From Hydrogenovibrio marinus (GTDB lineage: Bacteria > Pseudomonadota > Gammaproteobacteria > Thiomicrospirales > Thiomicrospiraceae), in assembly GCF_013340845.1 (NCBI RefSeq), contig NZ_AP020335.1, positions 1,488,001 through 1,552,000 of the forward strand: a stretch of 64,000 nucleotides of DNA. Direction: 5' to 3'. Position numbers and translations under genes: made by a program. Positions 1,944 to 62,425 of the stretch are shown piece after piece. The notes beneath the pieces were generated by a model that made no database searches, was not told the origin of the DNA, and saw only the letters and a program-made list of their open reading frames with translations. Position 1 is the first letter of the stretch; the number at the start of each line of letters is the position of its first letter.

Positions 1944-2594
1944 TTAGTGTTTAATATCTCGCCAATATTCTTTCTTCAACAGATAAGTAATGATAAAGAA
2001 TATAAACAAGAACAGCATCACTTTCCAGCCAAGAGATTCTCTTTTCACCTTGATTGGTTCACCAACATATGCCAAGAAGTTAGTGATGTCAGCGACATCC
2101 TGGCTAAATTGTTCTTTTGTCGAATAACGTTGAACGCCTTCCAAGATGTTTGGCATAACCGTTCCATGAAGAACTTTGTTATCCCATGTTTTGGTCTTTT
2201 CATCATATTCAAAGCCCTTCAAGAAGGTATAAATATAATCAGGACCTTTTAGACGTGCCATCAAAGATAAATCTGGAACATGCGTTCCTAAAACTTCCAT
2301 ATCGACACCCGGCAACATGCGAGTCATCACGTCATCAACAGGCTTTGCTTGACCATAAGCCATCTTCTTGACGATCTCATCATCAGTCCAACCCAAATCA
2401 CGCGCAATACGGTTATAACGCATGTACTTGACTGAGTGACACGCCATACAGTAGTTTGAGAACAGAAGCGCGCCTCTTTGCAGAGAAGCTTTATCTTTTA
2501 GGTTAATCGGCGCCTTTTCCAGCTCAACCCCATGAACGGCAGCAACGGAAACAAACGGCAGTACAAACAACAACAATCCGAATAGTTTTTTCAT
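1944..2594 (-). CDS. petC: Cytochrome c1 of the bc1 complex
   Basis: Cytochrome c1 accepts electrons from the Rieske protein and passes them to soluble cytochrome c. The 216-residue protein has a signal peptide (about 1-19), a CMACH haem-binding motif at C49/C52/H53, a MTRMLPGVDM segment of the kind that supplies the methionine ligand, and one C-terminal membrane anchor (about 191-206) followed by a basic tail. It is last in petABC; its ATG overlaps the petB stop (TAATG), implying translational coupling. A terminator follows directly. Confidence 0.96.
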   Translation of the reverse strand: MKKLFGLLLFVLPFVSVAAVHGVELEKAPINLKDKASLQRGALLFSNYCMACHSVKYMRYNRIARDLGWTDDEIVKKMAYGQAKPVDDVMTRMLPGVDMEVLGTHVPDLSLMARLKGPDYIYTFLKGFEYDEKTKTWDNKVLHGTVMPNILEGVQRYSTKEQFSQDVADITNFLAYVGEPIKVKRESLGWKVMLFLFIFFIITYLLKKEYWRDIKH

Positions 2595-3829
2595 TAACTT
2601 ACCCTCTCTGGAACCGGTTTTGTCTTCTCAGATACCGAAGTAAACGGCAAGATAATGAAGAACAAGAAATAAGTTGCAGTGAAGATTCTCGCTAGCTTAG
2701 TCAACTCTGGTGATGCTGGCTGCGTTCCCAACCAACCCAACGCCAAGAAACTAATCACGAACATTGTTAGCAAAGCTTTATATGAAGCGCCTCTATAACG
2801 GATGGATTTCACTTTACAGCGATCTAGCCAAGGCATCGCAAACAGGACAGCAATAGAACCTCCCATCGCGATAACCCCCATCAATTTATCGGGAATTGCT
2901 CTCAAAATGGCATAGAACGGTGTGAAATACCAAACTGGCGCAATATGATCAGGCGTCTTCAACGGGTTTGCCGGCTCAAAGTTTGGTGGTTCCAAGAAGA
3001 AGCCACCACCTTCAGGCATATAGAACACAACGAATGCAAAGAAGAACAAGAACACAATAGCTCCCATACTGTCTTTGACTGTGTAATAAGGGTGAAAAGC
3101 AATACCATCAATTGGTAAGCCTTTGTCGTTTTTATATTTCTTGATTTCAACACCGTCAGGGTTGTTTGAGCCGACTTGGTGAAGTGCGACGATATGCATG
3201 AACACCAATACAATCAAAACCAATGGCAAAGCAATAACATGCAAAGCAAAGAAGCGGTTCAATGTCGCATCAGAAATAATGAAATCCCCTCTCACCCATG
3301 TCGCCAAATCATGCCCGATAACCGGAATGGCTCCGAATAGAGAAATGATTACCTGAGCTCCCCAATAAGACATTTGTCCCCAAGGTAGCAAGTACCCCAT
3401 GAAAGCTTCAGCCATCAGTACCAGGAAAATAAACATCCCCAAAATCCAAACCAATTCTCTTGGCTCTTTATAGGAACCGTATAGTAACCCTCTCATCATA
3501 TGAAGATAAATAACGATAAAGAACGCAGATGCGCCAGTAGAGTGCATATAGCGAATCAACCAACCCCATTCGACATCACGCATGATATATTCGATTGAGT
3601 TAAAAGCTTCTGCGGCACTTGGTTTATAGCTCATCGTCAACCAAACACCGGTAATGAACTGGTTGACCAGAACCAATAATGCTAAGGATCCGAAGAAATA
3701 CCAGAAGTTGAAGTTCTTTGGTGCGTAATACTCTCCAACATGAGCATTCCATGTGCTTACCAAAGGATAGCGTCTATCAATCCAAGCTAGGATAGAGTTC
3801 TTAGGCCTTTCATGTGTAGTATTTGACAT
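2594..3829 (-). CDS. petB: Cytochrome b of the bc1 complex
   Basis: Membrane core of ubiquinol:cytochrome c reductase, 411 residues, full length with both N- and C-terminal domains. The two bis-histidine haem ligand pairs are visible (H96/H197 and H110/H212 in helices B and D). The Qo-site tetrapeptide is PVWY (298-301) where the textbook motif is PEWY; PVWY is, as I recall, a known variant in proteobacteria. The start ATG overlaps the petA stop as TAATG. In a sulfur oxidiser this complex would link quinol from sulfide oxidation to cytochrome c and, run in reverse, support reverse electron flow (inference). Confidence 0.97.
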   Translation of the reverse strand: MSNTTHERPKNSILAWIDRRYPLVSTWNAHVGEYYAPKNFNFWYFFGSLALLVLVNQFITGVWLTMSYKPSAAEAFNSIEYIMRDVEWGWLIRYMHSTGASAFFIVIYLHMMRGLLYGSYKEPRELVWILGMFIFLVLMAEAFMGYLLPWGQMSYWGAQVIISLFGAIPVIGHDLATWVRGDFIISDATLNRFFALHVIALPLVLIVLVFMHIVALHQVGSNNPDGVEIKKYKNDKGLPIDGIAFHPYYTVKDSMGAIVFLFFFAFVVFYMPEGGGFFLEPPNFEPANPLKTPDHIAPVWYFTPFYAILRAIPDKLMGVIAMGGSIAVLFAMPWLDRCKVKSIRYRGASYKALLTMFVISFLALGWLGTQPASPELTKLARIFTATYFLFFIILPFTSVSEKTKPVPERVS

Positions 3830-4440
3830 TAAGCAACTCCTTTCTTAGCGTTTTCACCTACTCGAACAATTGAGGCGGTTTTAAAGTAGTAAGGAGGAAT
3901 AACCAAATTTGTTGGCGCAGGAACGCCTTGGAAAACGCGACCAGCCAAATCGAACATAGAACCATGACAAGGACAGAAAAAGCCACCTTCCCAGCCTTTT
4001 TCCATATCTGGTGAATTCACAGCGGGACGATATAAAGGAGAACATCCTAAGTGAGTACAAACACCGACTACGACCAAATATTCTGGCTTAATAGAGCGAT
4101 ATTCATTGGTTGCGTATTTAGGTTGTGTGGATTCTTTTGACTCTGGATCACGAAGTTTAGGATCCATCTCAGGCAAACGTTTCAACATATCTGGCGTTCT
4201 TCTAACAATCCAGACAGGTTTTCCACGCCATGACACGGTCATCATTTGGCCTGGTTGAAGATGACTGATATCAGCATCAACAGGAGCACCGGCAGCCTTA
4301 GCTTTCTCACTTGGTTGCCATGAACTTACAAATGGAACAGCCAGAAAAGTTGCCCCTGTTGCCCCTAGCACACCCGTTGCAGCCGTTAAAACTTTACGGC
4401 GCGTTAAGTTATTATTCTCATTATGCACATTTTGTGACAT
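3829..4440 (-). CDS. petA: Rieske iron-sulfur subunit of the bc1 complex
   Basis: The 2Fe-2S subunit, 203 residues. The N-terminus has a twin-arginine-type segment (LTRRKVLTAATG) followed by a hydrophobic anchor at about 17-39. Both cluster-binding boxes are intact: C128-T-H130-L-G-C133 and C156-P-C158-H159-G-S. It is the first gene of petABC. A small hairpin (CATTGAG/CTCAATG, 4461-4478) sits in the upstream leader. The upstream 162-bp gap to the Nif3-like gene is AT-rich and presumably carries the operon promoter. Confidence 0.96.
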   Translation of the reverse strand: MSQNVHNENNNLTRRKVLTAATGVLGATGATFLAVPFVSSWQPSEKAKAAGAPVDADISHLQPGQMMTVSWRGKPVWIVRRTPDMLKRLPEMDPKLRDPESKESTQPKYATNEYRSIKPEYLVVVGVCTHLGCSPLYRPAVNSPDMEKGWEGGFFCPCHGSMFDLAGRVFQGVPAPTNLVIPPYYFKTASIVRVGENAKKGVA

Positions 4441-55248: not shown

Positions 55249-55604
55249 GGGGATGCACTGGTTTCGACGGGGAGTACGAAGTTTAAAATGCATGCCGTGC
55301 CTGAATGATGCACGTTAATCTTAGTTCAATTTGTTATAGTTGCAAACGACGATAACTACGCTCTAGCTGCTTAATCCAGCTAGTGCAGCCTAGACCAGTT
55401 GTTCGTGGCCTCTAGCGCTGTATCGACTTACGCGAAACCGCTGTTAGCATGTGTTTGGATGTTGGCAGTTAAACTTTACAAACTCGCTTGACGTGATCCC
55501 TGCTGGTCGGGCAGCGTTCAGGTTAAATTAGTAGACCAAATAAGCATGTAGAGTTTTAGATGGAGGCTTTACGGACGGCGGTTCGACTCCGCCCATCTCC
55601 ACCA
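55249..55604 (+). ncRNA. ssrA: Transfer-messenger RNA (tmRNA)
   Basis: One-piece tmRNA of about 356 nt. The 5' GGGGATG pairs with 3' CATCTCC (one G-U) followed by A and encoded CCA; the T-arm GGTTCGACTCC is next to it. The tag reading frame runs 55342-55374: codons for ANDDNYALAA then TAA. The ribosome-rescue pair smpB-ssrA is adjacent. Everything needed for function is visible. Confidence 0.97.
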
Positions 55605-55610
55605 ATATAC

Positions 55611-55662
55611 ATTACTGGTCAACTTCCAGTAATTTCATAAAAGCCCTTGAACGGGCTTTTTT
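55611..55662 (+). terminator. Tandem hairpins terminating ssrA
   Basis: First hairpin ATTACTGG/CCAGTAAT (55611-55633), then a classical terminator AAAAGCCC/GGGCTTTT with T tail (55639-55662). Confidence 0.88.
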
Positions 55663-55825
55663 CTTATCTATACATCCCATAATTCAACAAGACATAGAAT
55701 TAAGTGGCATAAAAACTGTCATTTAAATGTGTTTGCGCCACTTATTAACAGTATCCATTGGATACTTGAAATACCTAATCAAAAGAAGCCAATATTTTCA
55801 TTGCCTTGCAAATAGAAGATGGAAA

Positions 55826-57016
55826 TTACAGTGCTACTTGGAATTGCAACGTGAAACGATTGTCTTTTATTTGGCCTGCAGGCACGCTAGTGTCTTCACT
55901 GTACTCAATGGTTCCTTTTGCATTTTCCATCGGGTAGTAGCTTAAGCCAGCAATTACTGATTCAGTTTTTTGTGTACCATTGTTTTGTTCCGAAGACTGA
56001 TAGCGCAGCAAAGGCACCCAATGTCTATTGCTTGAAAAATAGACTGCTTGAACGTAGTCATCTACGTTGCTTTCTTTTGCTTTCGACGTAGCATATTGAT
56101 CGTGAGCTCTCATATAGACACCGGTTAATCTCACTTGAAGAATATCTGCCTGAGTATCAAAACCGAAGCGGTCAAAGTTACGAGCTTGACTTGATTTATT
56201 ATTCGTTGAAGAGATTTCACTACGGCCGGATACTCCAAAGGTTCCTACCATCAAGCGAGGTGTAATGTCTAAAGCGAGTCTTCCAAGATAAACTGTCGAA
56301 TCTTGCCCTGTTTTATCCTCAGTTAAACCACCGACTGTTGCGTCATAAAACAAACGTCGAGCAAGCCGACCAAATATCGAAAACTGCTGACGCGGATGTC
56401 TTAATTGACCATCTACCCCACTGAAACTTGATTCCAAAACATTGTAGTTGCTTACGGATAAGCGGCGCATGTTTGACAAAGTGTCATAGGGATCGGAAAA
56501 AAAACTAGGGGCGTAAGCTGCCTCTAGATGAAGGTGCGGGTTAATCGTATAACCTAAAGAAGTCGCTTCGGTAGTTAGACCAAATCCATCTTCCCCTTCA
56601 GCTTCAATATCAATATAGGTAAAGACTTTGTTGAAATTTCCACCAGCCAATAGTTCCACTTCATGAATGGCTCGGATTTCTTTTTTTCCGCTTTTTTTCT
56701 TGTCATAGGGTCTTGAAGTTATCGCTGCTGCAATGGGGAACTGCTTCATCATGCTTTCAAATTGTGATTCGTTGGCCATTTTATTCATACCAAAGCCTCG
56801 ACCACGCATCATATTATTAAATGAATACCCATTCATTTTATACAGTCTACCTGTCGCATTCAGCGCTGGGTAAGCCGTATGACATTCTTCACAAGTCTCA
56901 TGCTCCATACGGGCAAAAGCAGGCGTCGCATTAGCAACACTTGGTAAATAAAGAACAGTGACAACTACGAGTTCAATAAAAAATAGCGGGAAGGATAGTA
57001 TGCTTCTAAATATCAT
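55826..57016 (-). CDS. Cyc2-like outer-membrane porin-cytochrome
   Basis: 396 residues. Signal peptide (about 1-30, cleaved near SVANA-TP), then PAFARMEHETCEECH with one c-type haem site (C42, C45, H46) and AYPALNATGRLYKMNGYSF, the pattern that follows the haem in Cyc2 proteins. The rest (about 110-396) alternates polar and hydrophobic residues with aromatic girdles as in a beta-barrel, ending FTLQFQVAL. Cyc2 proteins oxidise extracellular Fe(II). GAGGAG lies well placed before ATG 57016. Downstream of the Spy-like gene, behind a terminator; electron donor here is unproven, and copper or another metal is possible. Confidence 0.72.
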   Translation of the reverse strand: MIFRSILSFPLFFIELVVVTVLYLPSVANATPAFARMEHETCEECHTAYPALNATGRLYKMNGYSFNNMMRGRGFGMNKMANESQFESMMKQFPIAAAITSRPYDKKKSGKKEIRAIHEVELLAGGNFNKVFTYIDIEAEGEDGFGLTTEATSLGYTINPHLHLEAAYAPSFFSDPYDTLSNMRRLSVSNYNVLESSFSGVDGQLRHPRQQFSIFGRLARRLFYDATVGGLTEDKTGQDSTVYLGRLALDITPRLMVGTFGVSGRSEISSTNNKSSQARNFDRFGFDTQADILQVRLTGVYMRAHDQYATSKAKESNVDDYVQAVYFSSNRHWVPLLRYQSSEQNNGTQKTESVIAGLSYYPMENAKGTIEYSEDTSVPAGQIKDNRFTLQFQVAL

Positions 57017-57121
57017 ATGTATCTCCTCAATAAAACTATTGAACGAACCTGATATTATTCAATTTAGACTCAAGCTGTGCTAGGTTCTTGGAACATAGCT
57101 TGGGAACTTGAAAATTAGAAT

Positions 57122-57158
57122 AAAAAAGTAGTCCAAAAAATATCTGAACTACTTTTTT
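57122..57158 (-). terminator. Terminator between the Spy-like and Cyc2-like genes
   Basis: AAAAAAGTAGT/ACTACTTTTTT stem with a 15-nt loop and T run on the minus strand, just after the Spy-like stop. Confidence 0.75.
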
Positions 57159-57163
57159 TGATG

Positions 57164-57733
57164 CTAATACCCCATCATCATGCCTCGGTAAGCATTGCGT
57201 AACTTTTCTTTTTGCTCTTTGGTAAGTATCGATTGCATTTTTTCACGCATTTTAGAGTGGAGCATAAAGGCCTGCTTTCTAACAGCGGCCATTTCATCAT
57301 AGGCTTTGCTGATAGCTTTTTGATCATGAGAACGCATGGCTTTGAACATATCATTTCTGGCTTTCCACATTTCGTTCATCATAGGAGTCATTTGGGCCAT
57401 TTGTTCAGAACGAATCTTTTGCATTTGGTTGATTTGTTTATCGCTCAGATTAATTACACCCATGCCGCCATAACCACCCATCATGCCCATACCGCCGTAG
57501 CCGCCCATCATTCCCATACCGCCGTAACCGCCCATCATGCCAGGGCTACCATAACCCCCCATCATGCCAGGACCATAGCCATTTTGCATGTGATATCCAG
57601 GACCATATCCACCACCCCCCATCATGCCGTAACCATTCCCCATCATCGGGGTATAGTCATCATCAGCTTGTGCTTGGGAAAATGGAATAATTAGAGTTGC
57701 CGATAGTAATAATGCTTTCAAAGATGTTTTCAT
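57164..57733 (-). CDS. Methionine-rich Spy/CpxP-like periplasmic protein
   Basis: 189 residues: signal peptide (MKTSLKALLLSATLIIPFSQAQA), a Gly/Met/Tyr-rich low-complexity region with four 9-residue MMGGYGxxG units (about residues 57-92), then a helical Spy/CpxP domain (LSDKQINQMQKIRSEQMAQM ... ILTKEQKEKLRNAY, the LTxxQ motif). Such proteins are envelope-stress chaperones or metal binders; the methionines could bind Cu(I). AAGAGGCATTACAAA precedes the ATG. Divergent from the SHOCT and CopB-type genes. Confidence 0.82.
   Translation of the reverse strand: MKTSLKALLLSATLIIPFSQAQADDDYTPMMGNGYGMMGGGGYGPGYHMQNGYGPGMMGGYGSPGMMGGYGGMGMMGGYGGMGMMGGYGGMGVINLSDKQINQMQKIRSEQMAQMTPMMNEMWKARNDMFKAMRSHDQKAISKAYDEMAAVRKQAFMLHSKMREKMQSILTKEQKEKLRNAYRGMMMGY
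57458..57565 (-). repeat. Four tandem 27-bp repeats in the Spy-like gene
   Basis: Each unit codes for MMGGYGGMG (first unit MMGGYGSPG). Near-identical units could expand or contract by slippage and alter the number of candidate metal-binding methionines. Confidence 0.8.
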
Positions 57734-58064
57734 TTTGTAATGCCTCTTAAATCTTTTAAAAAATTAGATATAAAAACAACCTACCTCGCTGACTAACCTC
57801 CTGTTGCCGCGGTGTTTCAATAAAAACTAAAGCATGCATAACGTTACGGGAGAGAAACATTTCTGTGAATGCTTTCGCAACGTTACATGTTGATTTTGAA
57901 CTTATTTTTTTTAATGTCAAATAAATTCACACTATTCGCGACATAGTTTTGAATTAAGACTATTGCCATTATTCATTACTAATATGACTTTGATTTTTAC
58001 AAAAAAAGAGTAACCTTTAAAAAGAAAACAATGTGCAATGAACTGTATCTTGTAAGGGGGACAT
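57734..58064. promoter_or_regulatory. Divergent promoter region of the metal segment
   Basis: 331 bp without a gene between the divergent Spy-like and SHOCT genes. It holds two direct copies of AACGTTAC (57840-57847 and 57879-57886), each centred on the palindrome AACGTT, which could bind a regulator; the remainder is AT-rich. I see no CueR-type or CopY-type operator and no RNA gene. Confidence 0.4.
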
Positions 58065-58301
58065 ATGAACTGGGACTTTATGAATATGCATGGATATTAT
58101 GGGGGGGGGTTCATGTGGTTGTGGTTTTTAGTAATCATTTTGATACTGGCATTCATTCTAGTGCCAATGTTTAGAAATAATAATTCAACACCTAACCCTC
58201 CTAAAGAAAGTGCGATGGAAATATTAGAAAAACGATTCGCGCGGGGAGAAATTAGTGCTGAAGAATATAAAAATATGAAACAAACCCTGGAAAGCAATTA
58301 A
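58065..58301 (+). CDS. Small SHOCT-domain membrane protein
   Basis: 78 residues: a Tyr/Gly/Trp-rich N-terminus, one membrane helix (about 16-36, FMWLWFLVIILILAFILVPMF) and a C-terminal SHOCT motif (AMEILEKRFARGEISAEEYKNMKQTLE). SHOCT proteins are often found beside copper ATPases. AAGGGGG is well placed before the ATG. A run of nine G bases (58101-58109) lies inside the reading frame at Gly-Gly-Gly, and slippage there would break the frame. 91 bp upstream of the ATPase gene. Confidence 0.85.
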   Translation: MNWDFMNMHGYYGGGFMWLWFLVIILILAFILVPMFRNNNSTPNPPKESAMEILEKRFARGEISAEEYKNMKQTLESN

Positions 58302-58392
58302 TTTTTAGACCTTAAGCTTTAAAAATTAACTGAATACTTAACTCGATGAAATGTAGCGGCCTGCTACGCTCATACGTTAGAGGGAGTTGAAC

Positions 58393-60420
58393 ATGGATGT
58401 AAAACACACCACTCATCATTCTCATGCTGCAATGAAAGAAAAAGACGGCATGCATCAACATCATCATCACAACCACCATCAACACATGATAGAAGACTTC
58501 AGGCAACGGTTTTGGGTATCCATGATACTAACAATTCCTATTTTATTTTTGTCCCCAATGCTTCAAACACTTTTCGGGTTCGAAAAATCTCTCAGTTTTA
58601 ATGGTGACAAATATTGGTTACTTGTTTTTTCAACCATCATTTTCATATATGGAGGAACACCTTTCTTAAAAGGACTTTGGAGCGAATTAAGCAACAAAAC
58701 ACCAGGAATGATGACCCTCATCGCAGTTGCGATTAGTACGGCCTTTTTTTATAGTGCAGTTGTGGTATTAGGCTTACCTGGTAAGGTATTTTTCTGGGAA
58801 TTAGCCACTCTGATTGATTTAATGTTACTGGGTCATTGGATAGAGATGAAGTCTGTTGTAGGTGCATCTCAGGCTCTCCAAAAACTTGCGGCTTTAATGC
58901 CAACTACGGCCCATAAAATATCTGAAGGAAACAACTTAATTGAAGTTAACCTTGAAGATTTAAAGCCTGGCGATAAAGTCCTTGTTAAACCCGGTGAAAA
59001 AATACCTTCAGATGGCGTTGTGCTTGAAGGGGAAAGCTCTGTAAATCAAGCTATGTTAACAGGAGAAAGCAACCCCATTTCAAAACAGACAAGTGACCCT
59101 GTTATTGGTGGCACAGTCAATGGTGAAGGCTCTTTAACGATAAAGGTAGAAAAAACTGGAAAAGACTCCTTCTTATCTCAAGTAATACTGCTGGTAGAAA
59201 AAGCTCAAGAAAGTAAGTCTAAAACTCAGAACTTGGCCAATCGTGCTGCTGTCTGGCTAACGATTGTCGCTTTATCAGGCGGCGCAATAACCTTCTTTGC
59301 CTGGTCAGTAATTCTATCGCATGACATTGCTTTTTCCTTAGAAAGGACTGTAACGGTAATGGTCATTACCTGCCCTCATGCCTTAGGTCTAGCCATTCCT
59401 CTGGTGGTTGCTGTTTCTACAGCACTCGCCGCCCGTAATGGCTTAATGATTAGAAATCGTACCGCTTTTGAAATGGCAAGAAACCTTCAAGCAATCGTAT
59501 TTGATAAGACAGGCACTTTGACAAAAGGTGAATTTGGCATCACCGATGTTGTTTGTTTAGAGGGTTCGTTAAACGAAAAAAATTTATTGATGCTTGCTTC
59601 ATCTATTGAACAACACTCAGAGCACCCTATAGCAAAAGCAATCGCTAAAGCTTCCACTGAATTTTTTAAAGTGGATAACTTTAAATCAATTCCGGGAAAA
59701 GGTGCTGAGGGCACTATCGAACAAAAGCATGTTCAAGTAGTCAGTCCGGGCTATCTAAGTGACAACAATATTACCTTTCAGTCAAAGCAAATTGAACAGG
59801 CTTTTGAATCAGGAAAAACCGTCATATTTGTTTTAACTGATGGAGAGCTCAAAGGTGCTATTGCATTAGCAGATATGGTTCGAGAGGAGTCCATTCAAAG
59901 CATCAAGCAACTACAAGCGATGGGAATTCAATGCATGATGCTAACAGGCGATAACCATCAAGTTGCCAAGGCTGTCTCGGATGAAATTGGTTTGGACGAT
60001 TATTTTGCTGAAGTTCTACCGCAAGAAAAAGCCAAAAAGATACAAGAGATTCAAGCTAGAGGACTTCTGGTCGGAATGGTTGGAGATGGTGTAAATGATG
60101 CCCCGGCTTTAGTTCAAGCAGATGTTGGGATAGCTATCGGAGCAGGAACGGAAGTCGCTATTGAGTCTGCTGATATTATTTTGGTTCACAACGATCCTAG
60201 AGATGTGGTGGCAACTATTGAACTTGCAAAGAAAACCTATAGGAAAATGATTCAGAATCTTTGGTGGGCTGCTGGTTATAACATTATTGCTATGCCTTTA
60301 GCTGCGGGCGTGTTATTCAATGTCGGTATATTATTGAGTCCTGCAGCGGGCGCAGTATTGATGTCGTTAAGTACAGTTGTAGTCGCAATCAATGCCAAGC
60401 TCCTGAAGTACGAAAAATAA
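58393..60420 (+). CDS. CopB-type (P1B-3) heavy-metal translocating P-type ATPase
   Basis: 675 residues from ATG 58393; AGGGAG precedes it, while the frame's TTG at 58387 is unlikely. N-terminus is His-rich (HQHHHHNHHQHM) with no CxxC metal domain. Eight membrane helices; the metal-site motif is CPH (C327-P328-H329) instead of CPC. Phosphorylation site DKTGT (D371), TGES, TGDN and GDGVNDAP are intact. CPH plus His-rich N-terminus defines P1B-3 pumps, which export Cu(II)/Cu(I) or Ag(I) from the cytoplasm. Confidence 0.92.
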   Translation: MDVKHTTHHSHAAMKEKDGMHQHHHHNHHQHMIEDFRQRFWVSMILTIPILFLSPMLQTLFGFEKSLSFNGDKYWLLVFSTIIFIYGGTPFLKGLWSELSNKTPGMMTLIAVAISTAFFYSAVVVLGLPGKVFFWELATLIDLMLLGHWIEMKSVVGASQALQKLAALMPTTAHKISEGNNLIEVNLEDLKPGDKVLVKPGEKIPSDGVVLEGESSVNQAMLTGESNPISKQTSDPVIGGTVNGEGSLTIKVEKTGKDSFLSQVILLVEKAQESKSKTQNLANRAAVWLTIVALSGGAITFFAWSVILSHDIAFSLERTVTVMVITCPHALGLAIPLVVAVSTALAARNGLMIRNRTAFEMARNLQAIVFDKTGTLTKGEFGITDVVCLEGSLNEKNLLMLASSIEQHSEHPIAKAIAKASTEFFKVDNFKSIPGKGAEGTIEQKHVQVVSPGYLSDNNITFQSKQIEQAFESGKTVIFVLTDGELKGAIALADMVREESIQSIKQLQAMGIQCMMLTGDNHQVAKAVSDEIGLDDYFAEVLPQEKAKKIQEIQARGLLVGMVGDGVNDAPALVQADVGIAIGAGTEVAIESADIILVHNDPRDVVATIELAKKTYRKMIQNLWWAAGYNIIAMPLAAGVLFNVGILLSPAAGAVLMSLSTVVVAINAKLLKYEK

Positions 60421-60475
60421 ACACTTTAGAGGGCGTATGAAACTCTGCCAAGAATATGCGCACTAATTAGCAACA

Positions 60476-60518
60476 AAGCGACTCACAGAAATCACTGTAT
60501 CCCTGTTCGTCGCTTTTT
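60476..60518 (+). terminator. Probable terminator after the CopB-type ATPase
   Basis: 8-bp stem AAAGCGAC/GTCGCTTT with a ~25-nt loop and TTTTTT tail. Confidence 0.6.
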
Positions 60519-60542
60519 TACGCTGGTTAGTTTAAGCGTTAA

Positions 60543-60928
60543 CTAGAAGTTCGACCATTCATCCTTACCTGATTTACTTTCTGAAGGAAATTGCAAAGGT
60601 TTATCACGGCTTTTCTCTGCAACTTTCTTGACTACTTTTTGAGTATCCCTATTTCCTGAGTCACCAATCCTAGCCACTTTAGCGGGGTTGCTAACTTTGC
60701 CTGTAACAAAGAATGCCATATCTTTTTTTCAACATAGCCGCTTGTTCACTCATACTTTCAGTCGCGACTGAAGTTTGCTCTACAAGCGCTGCATTTTGCT
60801 ATGTAACCTGATCGATCTCTGCAATAGGTTTATGAACTTGCTGAATTCCTTCTGCCTGCTCATGTGAAGTATGTGCAATTTCTTGGACCATAGAGGTAAC
60901 TTTCTCTACTGAGTCTGTAATCAAGTGT
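60543..60928 (-). pseudogene. Remnant of a methyl-accepting chemotaxis protein (C-terminal end)
   Basis: Conceptual translation on the minus strand gives LITDSVEKVTSMVQEIAHTS, HEQAEGIQQVHKPIAEIDQVT, an in-frame TAG, QNAALVEQTSVATESMSEQAAML, then a frameshift at an A-rich run and a tail that ends DEWSNF followed by TAG. This is the C-terminal half of the MCP signalling domain with a CheR-binding-type pentapeptide end. The N-terminal sensor and most of the hairpin are missing. It lies between the ATPase and the eut operon terminator. Confidence 0.85.
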
Positions 60929-60958
60929 AGAAAAGGCCAAAGACTACTAGTAAAAAAA

Positions 60959-60978
60959 GCCCTGTAGAAAAACAGGGC
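60959..60978 (-). terminator. Rho-independent terminator of the eut operon
   Basis: GCCCTGT/ACAGGGC stem, 6-nt loop, followed by seven T on the minus strand; 26 bp after the permease stop. Confidence 0.88.
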
Positions 60979-61003
60979 GAGGTATGGAACTTAAGAATGA
61001 AAG

Positions 61004-62425
61004 TTAAGCGACTTCCGCATACTCCCCTAACTCATCCTGAGCTTTAGAAAGCATGTCGAACTCTTCTTCGGCAGATTTCGCTACCAAGTGGTTTTTGCTA
61101 TACGCAAAGTAGTAGATTGCTCCTAGAACGAACAACAACATAGTGTAGTTAAATGCACGTGGATCAAATGCATATACTCCAGTCAGAGCAACCAAAGACA
61201 GCACTAACGCAATACCAGAAGTAAATACACCACCAGGCGTTTTATATGGACGCTCCAAGTCAGGCTGTTTGATACGAAGCATGATGTGACTCAATGCCAT
61301 TAATGCATACGAGACTGTTGCTCCAACTACCGCCATTGCCAACATCAAATCCCCTTCACCACTTAACGAGGCGATGAATCCAAGTACACCAGGAACAATC
61401 AATGCTCTTGATGGAATTTTACGATCGTTAGTGATAGAAAGCGATTTCGGCAAATAACCGGCACGAGACAATGCAAATACCAAACGGCTATAACCGTAAA
61501 TAATTGAGAAGAAAGATGCGATCAGCCCCACTAATGCCAACACATTTACCATAGTTGCAAGGCTTGCATTACCATGTGCATTCAATGCATCGACCAAAGG
61601 TACGCCACTTTCACTAATCATTTTCGCACCGGCAGCACCCGCTAACAAAAAGACAACCAAGACAGCGGTAACCAACAAGAACAACATCGCAGCGATAATG
61701 CCTTTTGGAACATCTTTTTCAGGTTCTTTAGCTTCTTCTGCTGCTAGAGGAACCCCTTCAATTGCTAGGAACAACCACATTGCAAAAGGCAAAGCCGCCC
61801 AGATACCGTACCATCCCATCGGCATAAAGCTGTTAGCCCCCAATGCCCCTTCCTTCACAGGAATGTCAAACAGGTTATTAACGTCAAAACCACTGATTAA
61901 CGCAACGCCCGTCGCAATGATTGCTAGTGCCGCAAGCGCACTAATGACCATCATGATTTTTAAGGCTTCGCCAACCCCCATCAAATGGATACCAACAAAC
62001 ACGAGATAGAAGAGCGCATAGACCCAAATACCATCAAAGCCTATCAGCGCTTGAACCGCTGAGCCTATGAATATGACGATTGCCGCAGGCGCTAATGCAT
62101 ACTCAATGAGTACCGCAAGCCCTGTGAGATAACCGCCAGTTGTACCCATTGCCTGACGTGCAAAACTATACCCGCCACCTGCAGTTGGAATTGCTGCAGA
62201 CATTTCCGCCAATGACAGTACCAACGTGAAGTACATGATTGCCATCAACACCGCAGCAATTGCAAAACCACCCCAGCCTGCTTGTGCCAGCCCGAAGTTC
62301 CAGCCGGCAAAGTCACCGGAAATAACATAAGAAACTCCCAAACCAGCTAACAAAAACCAGCCTGCTGTTCCTCTTTTCAACTGTCTCTTAGCGAGATAGT
62401 CGTGATCAGTTTGAGACGCACTCAT
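61004..62425 (-). CDS. eat: Ethanolamine permease (APC superfamily)
   Basis: 473 residues, about 12 membrane helices. The N-terminal stretch YVISGDFAGWNFGLAQAGWGG and AAIPTAGGGYSFARQAMG match the ethanolamine permease branch of amino acid/polyamine transporters. Last gene of eutB-eutC-permease (20 bp after eutC), so ethanolamine uptake is the likely role; other small amines cannot be excluded from sequence alone. Confidence 0.88.
   Translation of the reverse strand: MSASQTDHDYLAKRQLKRGTAGWFLLAGLGVSYVISGDFAGWNFGLAQAGWGGFAIAAVLMAIMYFTLVLSLAEMSAAIPTAGGGYSFARQAMGTTGGYLTGLAVLIEYALAPAAIVIFIGSAVQALIGFDGIWVYALFYLVFVGIHLMGVGEALKIMMVISALAALAIIATGVALISGFDVNNLFDIPVKEGALGANSFMPMGWYGIWAALPFAMWLFLAIEGVPLAAEEAKEPEKDVPKGIIAAMLFLLVTAVLVVFLLAGAAGAKMISESGVPLVDALNAHGNASLATMVNVLALVGLIASFFSIIYGYSRLVFALSRAGYLPKSLSITNDRKIPSRALIVPGVLGFIASLSGEGDLMLAMAVVGATVSYALMALSHIMLRIKQPDLERPYKTPGGVFTSGIALVLSLVALTGVYAFDPRAFNYTMLLFVLGAIYYFAYSKNHLVAKSAEEEFDMLSKAQDELGEYAEVA

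Follow-up and report, generated by a model that had tools for sequence, protein, structure and literature searches.

A divergent Cyc2-like porin-cytochrome gene on an accessory copper cassette of Hydrogenovibrio marinus

Keffer and others define the Cyc2 motif as AXPXFAR placed five residues before CXXCH, with PXL behind it (PMC8406198). All three tested Cyc2 proteins oxidise Fe(II), and the published Cyc2 tree discarded sequences lacking the strict form of the motif (PMC8406198). The folds published for Cyc2 and Cyt572 are those of OprP, OprO and PorB (PMC8406198, PMC10654088). Members of Hydrogenovibrio are known to grow on iron (PMC5794960, PMC11439405). Genomes of this genus were reported without cyc2 (PMC6501319), no known iron gene was reported for its iron-grown strains (PMC11439405), and the earlier reports on the genus give neither cyc2 nor mtoA (PMC6501319, PMC11439405).

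We analysed a stretch of 64,000 nucleotides from Hydrogenovibrio marinus, referred to as the window. On its minus strand it encodes a Cyc2-like fused monohaem cytochrome-porin of 396 aa (P0001, 55826..57016), recognised by its ORF, a family alignment and profile matches to Cyc2 clusters. The ORF starts with ATG and has an AGGAGA ribosome-binding site ahead of it (57022..57027, minus strand, as are all parts of the gene given below). A signal peptide, read by eye, takes up residues 1-29 (56930..57016), with likely cleavage between SVANA and TPAFAR, the same position as in the relatives. The cytochrome domain that follows (residues 30-65, 56822..56929) consists of ATPAFAR, five residues, CEECH and TAYPALNATGRLYKMNGY, and its core is invariant in the clade described below. 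As the original prediction had it, a single haem site comes right after the signal peptide: CEECH (residues 42-46, 56879..56893) is the sole CXXCH of the protein, lies 12 residues past the likely cleavage and is directly followed by the pattern then noticed, TAYPALNATGRLYKMNGYSF. The N-terminus (ATPAFAR, 5 aa, CEECH, TAY-PAL) agrees with the Cyc2 pattern, as do the signal peptide with one N-terminal CXXCH and the length, which for Cyc2 is at least 365 aa.

Searches of P0001 against Pfam, NCBIfam, PHROGs and PDB sequences gave no informative match, and a single plasmid match covered the N-terminus only. Among 369 gammaproteobacterial genomes there were eight full-length relatives, with 32-52% identity. 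A search of 58 further genomes of the same family gave no full-length match. A public genome scan seeded with three closer sequences returned four loci: one from a vent gammaproteobacterium, one from a MAG labelled Bdellovibrio, one that had already been found, and a distant Nitrospirota protein. The aligned clade members are 379-405 aa long, and their haem region and many barrel residues are invariant, with the pattern A-P-FA-C-C-H-P-L-GR-K-GY besides the invariant barrel positions. Full-length relatives of this kind, at 31-52% identity in other gammaproteobacteria, argue that the pattern seen in P0001 exceeds chance. By hhalign, the profile of these short proteins matched Cyc2 cluster 2 (E 5e-26, 351 columns), cluster 1 (E 7e-23, 356 columns) and a cluster-3-like set (E 1.6e-17), compared with an E of 6.6e-31 between clusters 1 and 2. 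Given the 351 and 356 columns covered, P0001 is a Cyc2 relative along its whole length, beyond the haem region.

In trees of 36-38 sequences, the eleven short Cyc2-like proteins, including P0001, formed one deep clade (support 98/99), split from clusters 1 and 2 with support of 99/96 to 99/98, and P0001 fell outside both the cluster 1 and the cluster 2 clades. We assigned the cluster labels ourselves, by position in the tree and by motif (P at +5 past the haem site in cluster 1 and at +4 in cluster 2), not by way of named references. The short clade shares its side of the tree with the cluster-3-like set (f72), the only stand-in for cluster 3 in these trees, which we infer to come from Zetaproteobacteria. 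Constraining the short clade to join cluster 1 or cluster 2 cost 13.4 log units (AU p 0.084 and 0.088), so such a union is disfavoured but not rejected. The Cyc2 architecture first proposed is upheld by haem context and spacing, profile matches and a porin-like model of low confidence, and refined to a deep clade outside clusters 1 and 2. It is well supported that P0001 is a Cyc2-type porin-cytochrome from a little-sampled clade. As a separate point, a rus operon was considered as a marker for an Acidithiobacillus reference and dropped: the f71 loci lack it, and one genome has a HiPIP-like neighbour.

Compared with cluster 1 (the Mariprofundus ferrooxydans PV-1 type, L005 and relatives), the short proteins share the signal peptide, AXPXFAR-5-CXXCH, P-X-L and the predicted barrel. 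They differ in having a mature length of 356-387 aa against about 380-410 in cluster 1, in carrying P at +4 past the haem site instead of +5, and in forming a separate deep clade; P0001, in addition, departs from [Q/K][T/Y]. Cluster 2 (the Acidithiobacillus type) shares these same features and also has P at +4, but the short clade is separated from it with good support and its mature proteins are mostly at least 50 aa shorter. As to cluster 3 (Cyt572), the short clade lies with the cluster-3-like set on one side of the split (99/96), with long branches between the two. A haem-less coiled-coil porin of copper clusters, found at L050 and L047, is related to the short clade in the C-terminal half of its barrel (hhalign E 4.6e-10, 153 columns); there, a coiled coil replaces the haem domain, and a gene of its own encodes the cytochrome. 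Regarding the strict signature AXPXFAR[Q/K][T/Y], P0001 has M-E at the last two positions. Three of the eleven proteins (L026, L028 and L029) keep the strict motif, while P0001 and seven of its ten clade mates miss at least one position. The published screen would hence have dropped most of the clade, P0001 included, and a strict motif filter under-counts Cyc2 relatives.

The C-terminal part of P0001 was predicted to be a 16-strand beta barrel (residues 95-396, 55829..56734). Two AF2 runs, one with 4 sequences and one with 5, each gave 16 strands, at a low mean pLDDT of 47 and 53; confidence was poorest for the haem domain and for the N-terminal side of the barrel. In Foldseek, the top ranks went to 16-strand porins (OmpC, OmpT, chitoporin and Omp32, and also OprP, OprO and PorB), with best E values of 2.8e-7 and 4.7e-8. 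The C-terminal part therefore likely forms a barrel, as the barrel-like C-terminus noted earlier had suggested, although the details of these low-confidence models are not trustworthy. Neither of the outcomes named beforehand as contrary, a prediction without a barrel or a phylogeny outside Cyc2 with a multihaem or non-porin family, came up.

After the haem comes a methionine-rich segment (residues 61-92, 56741..56836), seen from the Met count and the alignment and in part an insertion without counterpart in the relatives. This 32-residue stretch holds 7 of the 12 Met of mature P0001 (permutation p = 0.0008), and the family alignment showed no such segment in the other clade members. Met-rich segments of known copper proteins bind Cu(I), and by analogy the one in P0001 may be a hint of Cu(I).

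The gene lies on an accessory segment (55662..60927) that is missing from the nearest relative, G001, as judged by blastn and gene order. Homology to G001 ends at 55661, just past a tmRNA gene that flanks the segment (ssrA, 55249..55604, plus strand, by ARAGORN), and restarts at 60928; in G001 a single 262-aa ORF, EAL-like by eye, stands in place of these 5.3 kb. Upstream of the Cyc2-like gene, and on the same minus strand, is a Spy/CpxP-like periplasmic protein with Met/Gly/Tyr-rich repeats and 32 Met in 189 aa (57164..57733; PF07813 1.7e-8, PF13801 5.6e-8), and a consensus scan placed a terminator-like hairpin between both genes (57122..57158, minus strand). On the plus strand there follow a small membrane protein with a SHOCT domain (58065..58301; PF09851 2e-8) and a CopB-type copper P-type ATPase with a His-rich N-terminus and a CPH motif (58387..60420; TIGR01511, 627 bits). 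The Spy-like and CopB-type neighbours originally reported are thus borne out, and so is the lack of electron-transport genes nearby: none is adjacent, and the bc1 complex of the window lies at 1944-4440 (by eye). The Spy-like, SHOCT and CopB genes also occur together in another genus (CopB 77% identical), at a locus that ends at a contig edge.

The region downstream of ssrA, 55605-61004, varies among Hydrogenovibrio, with the cassette here, the 262-aa ORF in G001, other genes in G004 and an integrase-like ORF in G010 (by eye); it is an insertion hotspot. An integrase-driven insertion at the tmRNA end was considered and rejected, as no duplicated tmRNA end was found and the segment showed no integrase gene. 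Ahead of the Cyc2-like gene, Fur-like sites did not rise above background. Between the divergent Spy-like and SHOCT-CopB genes we noted direct repeats of AACGTTAC at 57840 and 57879, the sole copies in the window on that strand, which could possibly be an operator. Besides, 27-nt repeats at 57459-57646 encode the Met/Gly/Tyr-rich repeats of the Spy-like protein, a relative of which in G013 has GPGYGM repeats instead.

The host genome (2.49 Mb) carries soxB twice, as befits the sulfur oxidiser presumed at first, together with bc1 genes, ten cytochrome c domains that pass the Pfam cut-off and a multicopper oxidase. The divergent type is its only Cyc2-type gene. G007, presumed to be the iron-oxidising SC-1, carries an ordinary cluster-1-type Cyc2 (L005, at about 90.1 kb on its longest contig, G007:C1; L067:8122-9366), and the divergent type is absent from this genome. 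Iron growth in Hydrogenovibrio has had no agreed gene, and there are now Cyc2-type genes in two members, the cluster-1 type in the presumed SC-1 and the divergent type in the strain of the window.

The short Cyc2-like gene is directly adjoined by a gene for a c-type cytochrome (1-3 CXXCH) in six of the eight other genomes, or five of seven families, an arrangement suggesting that electrons are passed across the outer membrane. In two of these other genomes, a CopB-type ATPase lies no more than 10 kb from the gene. Of the seven other loci whose flanks are long enough, five lack copper genes in the vicinity. A heavy-metal-type ATPase, judged by eye, was also within 10 kb in three of six control loci with an ordinary Cyc2, so the copper link is not shown beyond chance. 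Linkage to copper was accordingly set aside as a trait of the clade as a whole: besides the window, it held at two of seven other loci, and the controls did not clearly differ. In two genomes, the short type co-occurs with a cluster-2 Cyc2. At L049:6639-10526, the short Cyc2-like gene is followed by a monohaem cytochrome, a flavocytochrome c sulfide dehydrogenase and a NapC-type tetrahaem gene.

Taking these data together, P0001 is probably a Cyc2-type cytochrome-porin of the outer membrane that has a single haem and passes electrons inward, with Fe(II) as the most likely donor by homology. Its short N-terminal haem domain would most likely sit in or at the mouth of the 16-strand barrel, where a small reduced metal ion on the outside of the cell would give the haem one electron, to be passed on to periplasmic c-type cytochromes and, through them, to the respiratory chain. 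The data show the haem site, the export signal, the kinship with Cyc2 and the location on the accessory copper cassette, and a low-confidence prediction backs the barrel. Inward transfer is likely, and we infer the electron flow, the donor and the partner cytochrome. This reading draws on the Cyc2-like haem motif and its spacing, the profile matches, the porin-like models, the cytochrome genes adjoining in other genomes and the soxB, bc1 and cytochrome genes of the host. Against it stand the window gene having no adjoining cytochrome gene, the pLDDT of 47-53 with its minimum in the haem domain, neighbours that serve copper and not energy metabolism, and the different Cyc2 of SC-1. One could argue that the protein serves energy metabolism only, as an Fe(II) oxidase for growth on iron that reached a copper cassette by an accident of transfer. 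This is conceivable, if not what we would expect, given the activity of all three tested Cyc2 proteins on Fe(II) (PMC8406198) and the growth of Hydrogenovibrio on iron (PMC5794960, PMC11439405); but the iron-growing SC-1 carries a cluster-1-type Cyc2, no Fur-like site was found upstream, and the two genomes in which the short type accompanies a cluster-2 Cyc2 suggest a separate job for the former.

As anticipated, several donors come into play, Fe(II) leading by homology and Cu(I) being a serious alternative, suggested by the cassette and by the Met-rich segment unique to P0001. If, at the outer membrane, the haem turned Cu(I) into Cu(II), which is less toxic, and drained the electron to the respiratory chain, the protein would join the CopB-type ATPase and the Spy-like protein in one cassette for copper defence. 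We hold this to be rather unlikely. It is favoured by the 5.3-kb accessory segment shared with these two, by a Met-rich stretch just behind the haem domain that the relatives lack, by the CopB-type ATPases that two other genomes have at most 10 kb away from this type of protein and by a haem-less porin with a related barrel that lies, with a cytochrome gene, inside a CopA/CopB copper cluster. Yet five of seven other loci show no nearby copper gene, half of the control loci also have a heavy-metal-type ATPase, a terminator-like hairpin parts the Cyc2-like gene from the Spy-like one, and the host already owns a multicopper oxidase. The fuller version, a clade missed by the signature, one member of which was recruited to copper defence and oxidises Cu(I) at the outer membrane through a Met-rich site by the haem, with the electrons going to respiration, is unlikely. 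Another extracellular donor, namely Mn(II), sulfide or polysulfide, or an electrode, would fit a sulfur-oxidising host and the sulfide dehydrogenase and NapC-type genes next to the L049 relative, but this evidence comes from one locus and we regard such a donor as decidedly improbable. Finally, a channel whose haem is structural, or a passenger gene with no redox role, would agree with a barrel related to haem-less porins; the invariance of the haem motif and its surroundings across the clade and the cytochrome genes adjoining in most loci make this very improbable. The divergent clade raises the question of whether proteins of the Cyc2 type also act on donors besides iron.

The haem-less coiled-coil porin was found beside a separate c-type cytochrome at L050:930-11991, L051:478-4915 and L047:11124-13151. 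At L050, the pair is accompanied by a CopA multicopper oxidase, CopB, a MerR regulator and a CopB-type ATPase, and pairs of this type are possibly a split porin-cytochrome for copper.
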